Assembly (NCBI GenBank): GCA_031265015.1
Contig: JAISDG010000052.1
Span: 1 to 39,193, forward strand
Reading direction: 5' to 3'
DNA: 39,193 bases
Origin: Spirochaetaceae bacterium
GTDB lineage: Bacteria > Spirochaetota > Spirochaetia > Treponematales > Breznakiellaceae
Shown: positions 31,476 to 35,155 of the stretch, one piece after another
Numbering within the stretch: the stretch's first letter is position 1
Layout of the letters: the number at the start of each line of letters is the position of its first letter
Program-made: the position numbers and the translations under genes
The notes under the pieces: generated by a model
What the model was told of the DNA's origin: nothing
Seen by the model: the letters and a program-made list of their open reading frames with translations, nothing else
Database searches by the model: none

Positions 31476-32921
31476 ATGGGCCTTCGCGAGGAGTGCGGCG
31501 TCTTTGGGGTATACTGTAAAGACCCGGATAAGGAAGCCGTTCCCCTGGTGTACTACGGCCTCCTTTCGCTGCAGCACCGGGGCCAGGAAAGCGCGGGCAT
31601 CGCCGCGGTACAGCCCGGGGCGGACGGGAAGGCCGAAAACGTCATCGAGTGCCGCAGGGGCATGGGCCTGGTGGGAGAAGTCTTTGGCGGGGAAAGCCTT
31701 TCCCTGCTGAGGGGTTCCGCCGCGCTGGGCCATGTCCGGTACTCTACCTCCGGCTCCAGCTGCCTGGAAAACGCCCAGCCCTTTGTAAGCCGTTTTAAGC
31801 TTGGCTCCATTGCGGTAGCGCATAACGGTACGCTGACCAATGCCGACGTGGTCCGCGAACTGCTGGAAGACGCCGGAGCCGGTTTTACCTCTTCCAGCGA
31901 CAGTGAAGTAATCGTCAACCTGATAGCAAAAAACTACAAAAAGGGGCTGGAAAAGGCCTTAACCGATACGATCAAGTTTATCAAGGGCTCCTATGCCCTG
32001 GCGGTGCTTACCGGCGATGCCCTGGTGGGGGCCAGGGATCCCAACGGCATCCGGCCCCTCTGCCTGGGCAAGATGGACGGCGGCTGGATCCTGTCCAGCG
32101 AATCCTGCGCCATCGACGCCGTGGGGGGCGAATTTGTCAGGGACATAGAGCCGGGCGAAATGGTGATCATCCGGCAGGGAGATGTTCTTTCCTTTACCTT
32201 CAGCGAAAAAACCAGGCGGGCGGTCTGCTCCTTTGAGTATGTATATTTTGCCCGGCCCGACAGCGTGATTGATTCGGTGGATGTTTACGGGGCGCGGATC
32301 CGGGCAGGGGAAATTCTGGGCCGGGAATCCGCGGCCAGCGCGGATCTGGTAATCGGCGTTCCCGATTCGGGAATCCCCGCGGCCATAGGCTACGGCAGAG
32401 CAACGGGAACACCCTTCGGACTGGGCATCGTAAAAAGCAAGTACGTGGGCCGGACTTTTATTGCGCCGAACCAAAGCCTGCGGGAACGGGCCGTTTCGGT
32501 AAAGCACAATGTTATTGAAAGCGAAGTCCGGAATAAACGGGTAGTGATCATCGACGATTCCATTGTCAGGGGTACCACTTCCCGGCGGCTGGTTTCCATA
32601 CTGAAAGCCGCGGGAGCAAAGGAAGTTCATATCCGGATCTGTTCGCCGCCGGTGCGTTTTCCCTGCTATTTTGGAATCGACACTCCCCACCGCCGGGACC
32701 TTATCAGCAATATGAACAACGCCAGCGAATTATGTTCGTCCCTGGGAGCGGACAGTCTTGCTTTTATCAGCGTAGAAGGACTCCTGGAATCCATCGATCC
32801 CCGGGATCTTTGCCCCGATGCCCGGCAGAACACGTCCGGCTTCAACGGCAGGGAAGACGGTTACTGCCTTGGCTGCTTTACGGGGGAATACCCCATTCCG
32901 GTTCCCGGCGAAGACAGATAA
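31476..32921 (+). CDS. purF: amidophosphoribosyltransferase
   Basis: The 481-residue enzyme makes phosphoribosylamine from PRPP and glutamine, the first committed purine step. The short propeptide MGLREE is followed by the Ntn nucleophile Cys7. The PRPP loop is VVIIDDSIVRGTTSRR (356-371). Four cysteines, Cys251 (AVCSFEY), Cys397 (FPCYFG), Cys464 and Cys467 (YCLGCFTG), align with the [4Fe-4S] ligands of the Bacillus subtilis enzyme (Cys236, 382, 442, 445), so this is the oxygen-sensitive Fe-S type. It starts one base after purC and ends the first purine block. Confidence 0.97.
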   Translation: MGLREECGVFGVYCKDPDKEAVPLVYYGLLSLQHRGQESAGIAAVQPGADGKAENVIECRRGMGLVGEVFGGESLSLLRGSAALGHVRYSTSGSSCLENAQPFVSRFKLGSIAVAHNGTLTNADVVRELLEDAGAGFTSSSDSEVIVNLIAKNYKKGLEKALTDTIKFIKGSYALAVLTGDALVGARDPNGIRPLCLGKMDGGWILSSESCAIDAVGGEFVRDIEPGEMVIIRQGDVLSFTFSEKTRRAVCSFEYVYFARPDSVIDSVDVYGARIRAGEILGRESAASADLVIGVPDSGIPAAIGYGRATGTPFGLGIVKSKYVGRTFIAPNQSLRERAVSVKHNVIESEVRNKRVVIIDDSIVRGTTSRRLVSILKAAGAKEVHIRICSPPVRFPCYFGIDTPHRRDLISNMNNASELCSSLGADSLAFISVEGLLESIDPRDLCPDARQNTSGFNGREDGYCLGCFTGEYPIPVPGEDR

Positions 32922-33014: not shown

Positions 33015-33167
33015 TTACTTCTGCCTGCCTTCGTTTTCTTTCCTGGCTTTGTTTTTTTTCTGGCGCTTAAGCAAAGATTCGGCCTTGGCCAGAATTTCCT
33101 TTTTTTGTTCCGCCGATAATTTGTTAAAACAGGCAAATAATCTTGCCGCTTCCGTATTTTCGTCCAT
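33015..33167 (-). CDS. small basic helical protein (50 residues)
   Basis: A 50-residue protein beginning MDENTEAARLFACFNKLSAE and ending with a Lys/Arg-rich tail is encoded opposite the pur genes. GGAG lies eight bases before the ATG, and a very good promoter (TTGATT-17-TATAAT) lies upstream. The sequence reads as one amphipathic helix pair (KLSAEQKKEILAKAESLL) and a charged tail with about 14 Lys/Arg. It has no toxin signature or membrane segment. It is divergent from the Cro/CI-type regulator, and both promoters carry the same ATCGTTA motif, so it may be controlled by it. A longer overlapping frame (33244-33011) has poorer composition and was not chosen. Function unknown. Confidence 0.65.
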   Translation of the reverse strand: MDENTEAARLFACFNKLSAEQKKEILAKAESLLKRQKKNKARKENEGRQK

Positions 33168-33199
33168 GGTGACAGCTCCGGAAAATTTACTAAGTAACG

Positions 33200-33228
33200 A
33201 TTATAAAATGATATAGCAATAAAATCAA
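33200..33228 (-). promoter_or_regulatory. promoter of the small basic protein
   Basis: TTGATT (33228-33223) and consensus TATAAT (33205-33200) are separated by 17 bases on the minus strand. CGTTA directly follows the -10, giving ATCGTTA at 33201-33195 in the direction of transcription. Confidence 0.7.
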
Positions 33229-33255
33229 TATAATAAATTTTCAAACCAAAATTGC

Positions 33256-33284
33256 TTGAAAACCGGATTTTAATTTGTTATCGT
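33256..33284 (+). promoter_or_regulatory. promoter of the Cro/CI-type regulator
   Basis: TTGAAA (33256-33261) and TATCGT (33279-33284) are 17 bases apart. The -10 ends six bases before the GTG start, so the message should be leaderless. The same ATCGTTA motif as in the opposite promoter covers the -10 (33280-33286). An inverted repeat TTTTCAA/TTGAAAA (33238-33244, 33256-33262) overlaps the -35. Confidence 0.55.
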
Positions 33285-33290
33285 TAAAGT

Positions 33291-33668
33291 GTGGATCAAA
33301 AAACTTTTGAAAAAGTAAACCAGCGTATCAAGCAGCTTCGCAAGGCTCTGAACATGACCCAGGCGGGCTTTTCGCAGGTGATCTCTCTTTCAAGCGGATA
33401 CCTGGCGGGAATAGAAACTGAAAAGCGTAAAGTCAATGACAGGATCATTAAGCTGATCTGTTCTTCTTTTAACGCCAACGAAAACTGGCTGCGCCGGGGT
33501 GACGGGGAGATATTTGCCCAGAACGACGATAAGCAGTTTATCAAACTGGTAGGATTGTTCAGAGAACTGGAACCCAGATACCAGGATTATATTTTTAAAG
33601 AAATAAGCCTCCTCCTGAAAATGCAGATTGACGGCGACGACAGTCAGAAAAGCGATTCTCCGGAGTAG
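33291..33668 (+). CDS. Cro/CI (XRE) family helix-turn-helix regulator
   Basis: The 125-residue protein has an XRE domain at about 8-75: RIKQLRKALNMTQAGFSQVI, the recognition helix around SSGYLAGIETEKR (34-46), and the NANENWLRRGDGEIF ending common to phage-type repressors. A short helical C-terminal part (about 80-115) probably dimerises; no peptidase or ligand domain is seen. It starts at GTG with no Shine-Dalgarno sequence, at the predicted transcription start. Its location between purF and purM, in AT-rich DNA unlike its neighbours, suggests acquisition by transfer. It likely represses its own and the divergent promoter; a role in purine control is possible but not shown. Confidence 0.82.
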   Translation: MDQKTFEKVNQRIKQLRKALNMTQAGFSQVISLSSGYLAGIETEKRKVNDRIIKLICSSFNANENWLRRGDGEIFAQNDDKQFIKLVGLFRELEPRYQDYIFKEISLLLKMQIDGDDSQKSDSPE

Positions 33669-33740
33669 AAAATATAACCGCATCTTCAGCGCCGTTCCCT
33701 TTAAAATTTTTTTACCCCCCTTCAAAATTCGTAAAGCTTT

Positions 33741-33768
33741 TTGAAAATTCGTTTTTGATTAGTATATT
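33741..33768 (+). promoter_or_regulatory. promoter of the AbrB/MazE-like gene
   Basis: TTGAAA (33741-33746) and TATATT (33763-33768) are 16 bases apart. An inverted repeat TTCAAAA/TTTTGAA (33721-33727, 33739-33745) overlaps the -35, a plausible operator. Confidence 0.6.
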
Positions 33769-33790
33769 CTATTCCAGGAGGTACTGACGT

Positions 33791-33967
33791 ATGCGGTTAA
33801 AAGTAATTTCCCATGGGGACAACATAGCCATGGTTTTTGATCAAAAACTCAGGGACAAACTCAAGCTTACCCCGGACACCGAATTTGAATACCGGACCGA
33901 AGGAACACGGCTTATTCTGTATCCCCAGAACGGCAGCCTGGAAACCGCGGAATCCGGGGTTTTATAG
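33791..33967 (+). CDS. AbrB/MazE-like swapped-hairpin DNA-binding protein (58 residues)
   Basis: The 58-residue product has the pattern of the AbrB/SpoVT/MazE N-terminal domain: beta strand (MRLKVISHGDNIAMVFDQKL), a short helix (RDKLKL), then TPDTEFEYRTEGTRLILYP as the second hairpin. Such proteins bind DNA as dimers, either as transition regulators or as antitoxins. No toxin gene follows; purM begins 87 bases downstream. AGGAGG precedes the ATG by nine bases, and a good promoter with an inverted repeat over its -35 lies upstream, consistent with autoregulation. Family assignment rests on size and hairpin pattern. Whether it belongs functionally with the XRE gene 122 bases upstream is open. 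Confidence 0.65.
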   Translation: MRLKVISHGDNIAMVFDQKLRDKLKLTPDTEFEYRTEGTRLILYPQNGSLETAESGVL

Positions 33968-34010
33968 CCGGAACGCCGGCGGCCTGTATCACAGGCCCGG
34001 CCTTAATGCC

Positions 34011-34039
34011 TTGGTAAAAAGGCCTTCTTCTGATACACT
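34011..34039 (+). promoter_or_regulatory. promoter of purM-purN-purH
   Basis: TTGGTA (34011-34016) and TACACT (34034-34039) are 17 bases apart. The -10 and following bases read TACACTTGAT, matching the element before purE (TACCTTTGAT) and gcvT (TACTCTTGAT). The leader to ATG 34055 would be about nine bases, without a Shine-Dalgarno sequence. Confidence 0.5.
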
Positions 34040-34054
34040 TGATTCCGAAAACTT

Positions 34055-35155
34055 ATGAACTACAGGGAAGCGGGCGTTAACATTGAAGAGGGCTACCGGG
34101 CGGTAGACACATACCGGGGACTGGCCGCGGGAACACTGGGAAGCCTTCGGGACGCGGTGCTCAACGGTATCGGCAGTTTTGCCGGCATGCTTTCCTTAAA
34201 AAATATTCCCGCCTTTCCCTCCATGGAAGAGCCGGTTCTGGTCTGCGGAACCGACGGCGTGGGAACCAAGCTTGATATTGCCTTTAAAATGCAAAAATAC
34301 GACACCGTCGGCATTGACTGCACGGCCATGTGCGTCAACGATATACTATGCCACGGCGCCCGGCCCCTTTTTTTTCTGGATTACCTGGCCTGCGGGAAAC
34401 TTGACGCCGGCATCGCCTCGGAGCTGGTCAGGGGCGTTGCCGCGGGCTGCCGTGAAACGGGCTGCGTCCTCCTGGGAGGGGAAACAGCCGAGATGCCCGG
34501 CTTTTATGACGAAGGAAAGTACGATCTTGCGGGTTTTGCCGTGGGGATCGCGGACCGTCACAGGATCGTTAACGGCGCCGCAATTCGGGAAGGGGACGCC
34601 CTTCTGGGGCTTGCTTCCTCGGGCCCCCATTCCAACGGCTTTAGCCTTATCCGAAAGGTAATCCCTATCCTGGAAGAGGATTTCGGCGGCATGCCCATAG
34701 GCAGGGCCCTTTTGGAGCCGACCCGCATCTATGTTAAGCCGGTGCTGGAACTGCTGGAAAAACTGCCCCTCCACGGCATGGCCCACATTACCGGCGGCGG
34801 TTTTTATGAAAACATTCCCCGGATGTTTGCCGGGCGCCGCTTTGACGCGGTGATCCAAAACAAGCGCTGGACCATCCCCCCGATCTTTAACCGTATCGCC
34901 TACAGCGCCGCCTGCGGCGCCGCGGCCCTGAACAAAACCGGCGCCGGCGCGGAATCCGCGGGGGCCGAACTCCTTGCGGAAGACTCCGCCCTGCGCAGGA
35001 TGATGTTCAACACCTTTAATATGGGAATCGGTTTTGTGATCGCCCTGGACAGGGCGGATCTTCCCCGGGCCGTTGAATTGCTGGATAACCGCGGTTTCCC
35101 CGCGTGGGAAATCGGAACGGTAACGGCCGGCTCCGGCCAGGTCCGCTTCGAGTGA
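34055..35155 (+). CDS. purM: phosphoribosylformylglycinamidine cyclo-ligase (AIR synthetase)
   Basis: The 366-residue enzyme closes FGAM to AIR with ATP. It shows the PurM/PurL-fold signatures VCGTDGVGTKLDIAF (nucleotide site), GIDCTAMCVNDIL, LLGGETAEMPGFY and ITGGGFYENIPRM. An Ala/Gly-rich insert (about residues 287-310, with ALNKTGAGAESAGAELL) makes it slightly longer than the E. coli protein (345 residues). It opens the second purine block after the regulator module. The stop overlaps the purN start (GTGA), giving translational coupling. Confidence 0.96.
   Translation: MNYREAGVNIEEGYRAVDTYRGLAAGTLGSLRDAVLNGIGSFAGMLSLKNIPAFPSMEEPVLVCGTDGVGTKLDIAFKMQKYDTVGIDCTAMCVNDILCHGARPLFFLDYLACGKLDAGIASELVRGVAAGCRETGCVLLGGETAEMPGFYDEGKYDLAGFAVGIADRHRIVNGAAIREGDALLGLASSGPHSNGFSLIRKVIPILEEDFGGMPIGRALLEPTRIYVKPVLELLEKLPLHGMAHITGGGFYENIPRMFAGRRFDAVIQNKRWTIPPIFNRIAYSAACGAAALNKTGAGAESAGAELLAEDSALRRMMFNTFNMGIGFVIALDRADLPRAVELLDNRGFPAWEIGTVTAGSGQVRFE

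Follow-up and report, generated by a model that had tools for sequence, protein, structure and literature searches.

A putative two-gene switch between purF and purM of a spirochaete, in which a divergent microprotein resembles the C-terminal tail of the neighboring XRE repressor

The stretch of DNA analyzed here, referred to as the window, comprises 39,193 nucleotides of contig JAISDG010000052.1 from a Spirochaetaceae bacterium (GCA_031265015.1). The genome is a draft with a completeness of 68.7%. Its public relatives are termite-gut Treponema assemblies, and the host is therefore presumed to be a treponeme of the termite gut. Three small genes lie between purF and purM of a purine cluster, in the order and at the positions given by an earlier note on this DNA:

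31476–32921, plus strand: purF, the upstream neighbor
33015–33167, minus strand: gene of a 50-residue microprotein, a relative of the XRE C-terminal tail and candidate antagonist
33291–33668, plus strand: gene of an XRE (Cro/CI-type) repressor of 125 residues, for which syntenic orthologues exist
33791–33967, plus strand: gene of a 58-residue AbrB/MazE-like protein, probably an orphan, shortened relative of AbrB-Doc antitoxins that stands apart from the XRE pair
34055–35155, plus strand: purM, the downstream neighbor, followed by purN and purH

The gap between the two divergent genes contains 26% GC, compared with 53–62% in the pur genes, and is AT-rich and unlike its neighborhood, just as the note had described it. 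Both flanks of the pair are pur genes, with no phage genes around it, and an Rfam search returned no match.

The XRE protein consists of a DNA-binding domain and a C-terminal tail, the latter being the stretch that the microprotein resembles:

33327–33491, plus strand: HTH_3 DNA-binding domain, residues 13–67
33525–33626, plus strand: C-terminal tail, approximately residues 79–112

The HTH_3 match has an E-value of 5e-7, and the closest solved structures by sequence are the HTH regions of PezA, ICEBs1 ImmR, and the 434 repressor. The GTG at 33291 is the sole possible start codon upstream of the HTH, with an in-frame TAA at 33285–33287.

The 50-residue protein encoded on the opposite strand matches no family above threshold. 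Profile–profile comparison (hhalign) places it in register with the tail of XRE, beginning near residue 79, with E-values of 7e-8 to 1e-7 (2e-9 on match columns) and of 6e-7 against the whole XRE, whereas the HTH half displays no similarity (E 0.14). The tail match holds with Bacillota sequences in the alignment (E 1e-5) and with unbiased seeds, i.e., the window protein (E 1e-7), and its score of 35 compares with at most 11 for 60 column-shuffled tails. When tail-only information was used, nine divergent ORFs were recovered at E-values up to 1 against one control ORF, which by inspection is a second XRE fragment. Judged from these profiles, and with the caveat that the microproteins are short, the microprotein is homologous to the C-terminal tail of XRE and to nothing else that was found; since it resembles only the tail of the repressor, it probably jams the repressor. 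Furthermore, cognate microprotein–tail pairs are more alike than non-cognate ones (p < 5e-5 overall; p 0.003 within genomes), a resemblance that an interface evolving in both partners would explain, as would repeated duplication at the locus; these data do not separate the two.

The linkage of the two genes is observed well beyond the window. With an iterated profile, a divergent microprotein was found at 41 of 90 XRE loci from related treponemes and almost never on control strands or downstream, while reseeding with the window microprotein alone gave 52 loci (combined, partly overlapping sets) and one control-region match, at L015; because the locus collections overlap, these counts are not independent. 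At L015 (182–529), the microprotein gene is convergent and overlaps the end of the XRE gene, the sole locus with this arrangement. Start codons in the relatives were selected by rule and not checked individually. In Bacillota, the divergent microprotein is present at all nine analyzable XRE loci, a tally outside which stand L194 and L210, which could not be judged fully. A profile search of 97 whole genomes placed every strong intact microprotein match beside such an XRE, the next matches being mostly XRE tails, and in one Bacillota genome the only two matches are the microprotein and the adjacent XRE tail. At L248 (216–460), where the microprotein is split between two frames and no XRE lies within the 2.6 kb fetched, the gene looks like a remnant. 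Nine Bacillota genomes carry one microprotein each, and some treponemes carry multiple copies of the pair. The distribution is patchy, as 2 of 200 genomes sampled from one Bacillota family matched. Since the pair turns up in many spirochaetes and in some gut Clostridia, it may represent a free-standing on/off switch inserted by bacteria at many sites. At L148, the pair adjoins a P4-type primase in a record labeled Prevotella, with an XRE that groups with those of treponemes; the context may be a mobile element or a misbinned contig. Another copy, at L184, has a resolvase-like protein, recognized by eye, in its vicinity.

Each of the three small genes has promoter-like hexamers at the places that the earlier note had implied, and candidate operator sequences are found among them:

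33200–33228, minus strand: predicted microprotein promoter, TTGATT (33228–33223), 17 nt, TATAAT (33205–33200), conserved in L146 and L148
33256–33284, plus strand: predicted XRE promoter, TTGAAA, 17 nt, TATCGT, whose −10 ends 6 nt upstream of the GTG
33741–33768, plus strand: predicted abrB promoter, TTGAAA, 16 nt, TATATT
33208–33220, no strand: candidate operator O2, ATGATATAGCAAT, located between the two hexamers of the microprotein promoter and identical in the four loci compared, which represent three different neighborhoods
33186–33201, no strand: weak, putative operator O1, TTTACTAAGTAACGAT, with a poor PWM score, including the minus-strand ATCGTTA
33721–33746, no strand: inverted repeat TTCAAAA..TTTTTGAA together with the −35 of the abrB promoter, its spacing not kept in the sister species

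As the −10 of the window XRE ends so close to the GTG, a leaderless mRNA is predicted. With a −35/−10 model, the predicted XRE −10 ends 5–10 nt upstream of the start codon in 57 of 94 loci, compared with 12.6 expected; an earlier test of the −10 without the −35 had given a weak excess only. On this model, the XRE mRNAs of treponemes are predicted to be leaderless.

The divergent gaps share an operator-like family motif, CTTGctATGTgAGtAt, which has a log-likelihood of 152 across 58 gaps and of at most 57 in shuffles. Eight Bacillota loci contain three copies at fixed spacings of 22 and 42 bp; by inspection, two of these cover the promoter of the microprotein gene and the third the −35 of XRE. 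Because the eight gaps are homologous, the spacing counts as one conserved feature and not as eight separate events. Treponeme gaps, too, are enriched in matches to the Bacillota matrix, with a mean best score of 6.3 against 3.0, and the window O2 is the equivalent of the middle Bacillota site. Taken alone, the window site is not significant, with a score of 4.8 below the shuffle 95th percentile of 6.7, and motif scoring of the window gap recognized no O3, leaving O2 as its only credible site. A strict operator pattern applied to seven Bacillota genomes revealed no regulon, the matches being mostly at or close to the locus of the pair itself, with few elsewhere and a few in a reversed-pattern control. 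The suggestion of a regulator pair is borne out for the 50-residue protein and XRE, whose divergent arrangement is conserved and whose promoters are both overlain by putative operators; the span of these operators also supports the suggestion that the two genes are self-regulated.

Two repeats had been singled out previously. The heptamer ATCGTTA does occur at 33201–33195 (minus) and 33280–33286 (plus), but its role as a shared operator is not upheld, since its registers relative to the −10 differ (TATA[ATCGTTA] versus T[ATCGTTA]) and some inverted 7-mer pair arises in 76% of dinucleotide shuffles of the divergent gap, which places the pair within chance. On the XRE side, the copy amounts to the −10 hexamer (TATCGT) and the bases that follow it, and it persists in relatives where the divergent gene is absent. 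The inverted repeats TTCAA/TTGAA were likewise found at both plus-strand promoters, each with a p of about 0.012, computed after the fact. As an abrB operator, the second repeat was not retained: in the sister species, its spacing is lost through a 20-bp insertion between the arms. The inserted bases and the first arm make up a perfect 11-bp hairpin, and a terminator, or the remnant of a hairpin, is no less likely than an abrB operator. The sister-species locus (L132) also contains, between XRE and abrB, a perfect inverted repeat, CCCCTTCAAAA..TTTTGAAGGGG, that is partly deleted in the window.

Comparison of junctions confirms an insertion in the purine cluster, as purF directly abuts purM in many relatives (L044, L045, L047, L050, L054, L055, L061, L063, and L068). 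In the public collection, XRE adjoins purF in ten other taxa, with purM next in seven; nine of the ten have the XRE without the 50-residue and AbrB-like genes, which occur together at the purF junction only in the genus of the window. A supported clade (99/96) unites nine of the ten purF-adjacent XREs with that of the window and with L138 (neighbor purH), while L159 is placed apart. Recent transfer of a three-gene island was rejected, since the junction XRE is common to a supported clade with differing gene content. The three-gene module that had been proposed is better read as a two-gene unit with an unrelated neighbor: the expected co-occurrence elsewhere holds for the microprotein and XRE, whereas the AbrB-like gene is confined to the genus of the window. 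Because XRE is often present without the microprotein, including in nine of the ten other purF taxa, it appears to work alone in many lineages. Family XREs lie beside purB, purF, purH, or a xanthine/uracil-type permease at L143–L145, L159, L138, and L245, which may be chance; the purB-adjacent loci also display an IMP-dehydrogenase-like neighbor (named by eye).

The likeness of the 58-residue protein to AbrB/MazE, as read by the note, yields a match to the MazE_antitoxin family that stays below threshold (E 0.079; 13.4 versus 24.7 bits), and the protein is 37–46% identical to antitoxin-like proteins of other treponemes. These relatives have about 75 residues, and five of eight adjoin a Fic/Doc gene. 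The window protein differs from these AbrB/MazE-Doc pairs in that it stops short of the C-terminal extension of its relatives and is not accompanied by a Doc gene; no Fic/Doc-like reading frame was seen in the translation of 33671–34060, after which purM follows. The reading that suits it best is that of an orphan regulator of the antitoxin type, outside the XRE pair, and its gene, found at the purF–purM junction in the genus of the window, may have arrived separately. In related treponemes, AbrB-like antitoxins beside Fic/Doc toxin genes are scattered over several loci (L034, L036, L038, L040, and L041).

Among known systems, SinR comprises an HTH domain and a two-helical hook that forms tetramers, and SinI is a free hook that draws it into inactive heterodimers (PMC3163267). 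In this Bacillus subtilis system (PMC3163267, PMC5864091), an XRE repressor of about 110–125 residues carries its HTH at the N-terminus and a helical module at the C-terminus, and has a neighbor of 50–60 residues that is a free copy of this module. The window pair, too, shares the tail by profile comparison, and its HTH repressor adjoins a small protein without a DNA-binding domain. Unlike the co-directional SinR/SinI genes, the pair is divergent in the window and at nearly all loci where it occurs, has putative operators between its genes, and reaches several copies per genome in some treponemes. The SinI family was matched by none of 23 microproteins in Pfam at E 0.1, and a PDB search to E 10 did not return SinI. 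The CI-MOR systems of TP901-1 and phi13 (PMC11149083) resemble the pair in their divergent small partner, their three operators (putative ones in the Bacillota members of the pair), and a repressor with a C-terminal region that is helical (presumably so in XRE), and the small gene of the window, encoding a putative antagonist, faces its repressor as in TP901-1. However, MOR has an HTH and binds CI at its N-terminal domain, whereas the window microprotein lacks an HTH and resembles the tail; moreover, CI-MOR resides in phage and the XRE pair at free-standing chromosomal loci. With lambda CI/Cro at OR, the pair shares divergent promoters, three operators (putative ones, in its Bacillota members), and a predicted leaderless repressor mRNA. 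The lambda cI mRNA from PRM is leaderless. In contrast, lambda Cro binds DNA and the partner in the pair shows no DNA-binding domain, and the operator sequence and spacing differ.

Since the pair has the ingredients of SinR/SinI and its small gene faces the repressor as in TP901-1 CI/MOR, we propose an autoregulated repressor with a tail-mimic antagonist. On the sequence data, we consider it fairly probable that the unit between purF and purM is a two-gene autoregulated switch whose microprotein antagonizes XRE oligomers by mimicking the tail. The XRE tail, we infer, would be the oligomerization module of the repressor; XRE oligomers would bind operators over the divergent promoters and repress the microprotein gene and, at a higher level, the XRE gene as well. 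The microprotein would pair with the tail and break or cap the oligomer, whereby repression would be relieved. Mutual antagonism combined with autoregulation may then produce a bistable or pulse-type switch, i.e., the logic of SinI/SinR in a layout resembling lambda OR. Speculatively, transcription continuing from the XRE promoter into purMNH could make these genes the output.

The homology and linkage described above would also fit a microprotein that acts as a co-repressor or stabilizing subunit, whose mixed oligomers with XRE bind DNA better or elsewhere, as TP901-1 CI:MOR does at the lysogenic promoter. TP901-1 Mor is reported to be both an antirepressor and a corepressor (PMC11149083), and a tail-like helper could stabilize oligomers instead of breaking them. 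However, when a partner without a DNA-binding domain enters the dimerizing interface, the affinity for operators should fall, as it does with SinI, and XRE is often kept without the microprotein; we regard this account as unlikely. The pair could otherwise be a domesticated immunity or lysogeny switch left by mobile elements, its present function being limited to self-control. The XRE is of the phage-repressor type (phrog_8, E 9e-12), the distribution is patchy in the Bacillota family sampled, sites are scattered among housekeeping genes, and copies adjoin the primase at L148 and lie near the resolvase-like protein, read by eye, at L184. Nevertheless, a scan of viral contigs found no relative, phage and plasmid matches are below 60% identity, and the XRE dN/dS between sister species is low, about 0.09, leaving such an origin doubtful as the whole explanation; it does not exclude the tail-mimic mechanism. 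That XRE is a dedicated purine regulator, sensing purine status and controlling purMNH or the whole pur cluster, is improbable. The supported clade at the purF junction, with L159 placed apart, and the members that have purB, purH, or a permease of the purine type as a neighbor speak for it, but many members adjoin unrelated genes (ymdB-rny, lon, and parAB-like, named by eye), XRE has no ligand domain, and many treponemes have purF-purM without XRE; with suggestive neighbors only, it was rejected as the main reading. The note had raised a toxin-antitoxin-like module in general terms; the version with the microprotein as toxin and XRE as antitoxin and repressor is very improbable, since the pair is divergent rather than operonic, the microprotein is homologous to the tail of its own partner and matched no toxin family convincingly when compared with Pfam, NCBIfam, PHROGs, and PADLOC, and the AbrB-like protein, although antitoxin-related, lacks a toxin and the C-terminal extension, even if no intact microprotein was found without XRE, XREs without the microprotein are common, and PezA and HipB, both antitoxins, are weak matches of the XRE HTH.

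Beyond the tail-mimic antagonist at this locus, we tentatively raise the possibility of an unnamed family of free-standing two-gene switches in Spirochaetota and Bacillota, where each XRE repressor would have as its opponent a divergently encoded microprotein that consists of the repressor's own tail, and which may insert repeatedly into housekeeping operons, including purine genes, and place downstream genes under bistable control, with the XRE mRNA leaderless in spirochaetes. If so, the SinI principle, in which a repressor is antagonized by a free copy of its own interaction module, would also operate in another family, separate and widespread, whose compact switches have the wiring of a phage switch yet lie on chromosomes. 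Dozens of loci otherwise annotated as an XRE regulator plus nothing would thereby gain a named hypothesis. With a unit of less than 700 bp, many natural variants, and matching cognate pairs, the family could suit studies of how partner specificity evolves, and the pair could serve as an orthogonal laboratory switch.

Variation within the family extends to its gene content and surroundings. At L087, the microprotein encoded by the divergent ORF contains two tail-like units in tandem, and at eight treponeme loci (L151, L161–L163, L165, L166, L171, and L175) the family XRE is located between ymdB-like and rny-like genes, as identified by eye.
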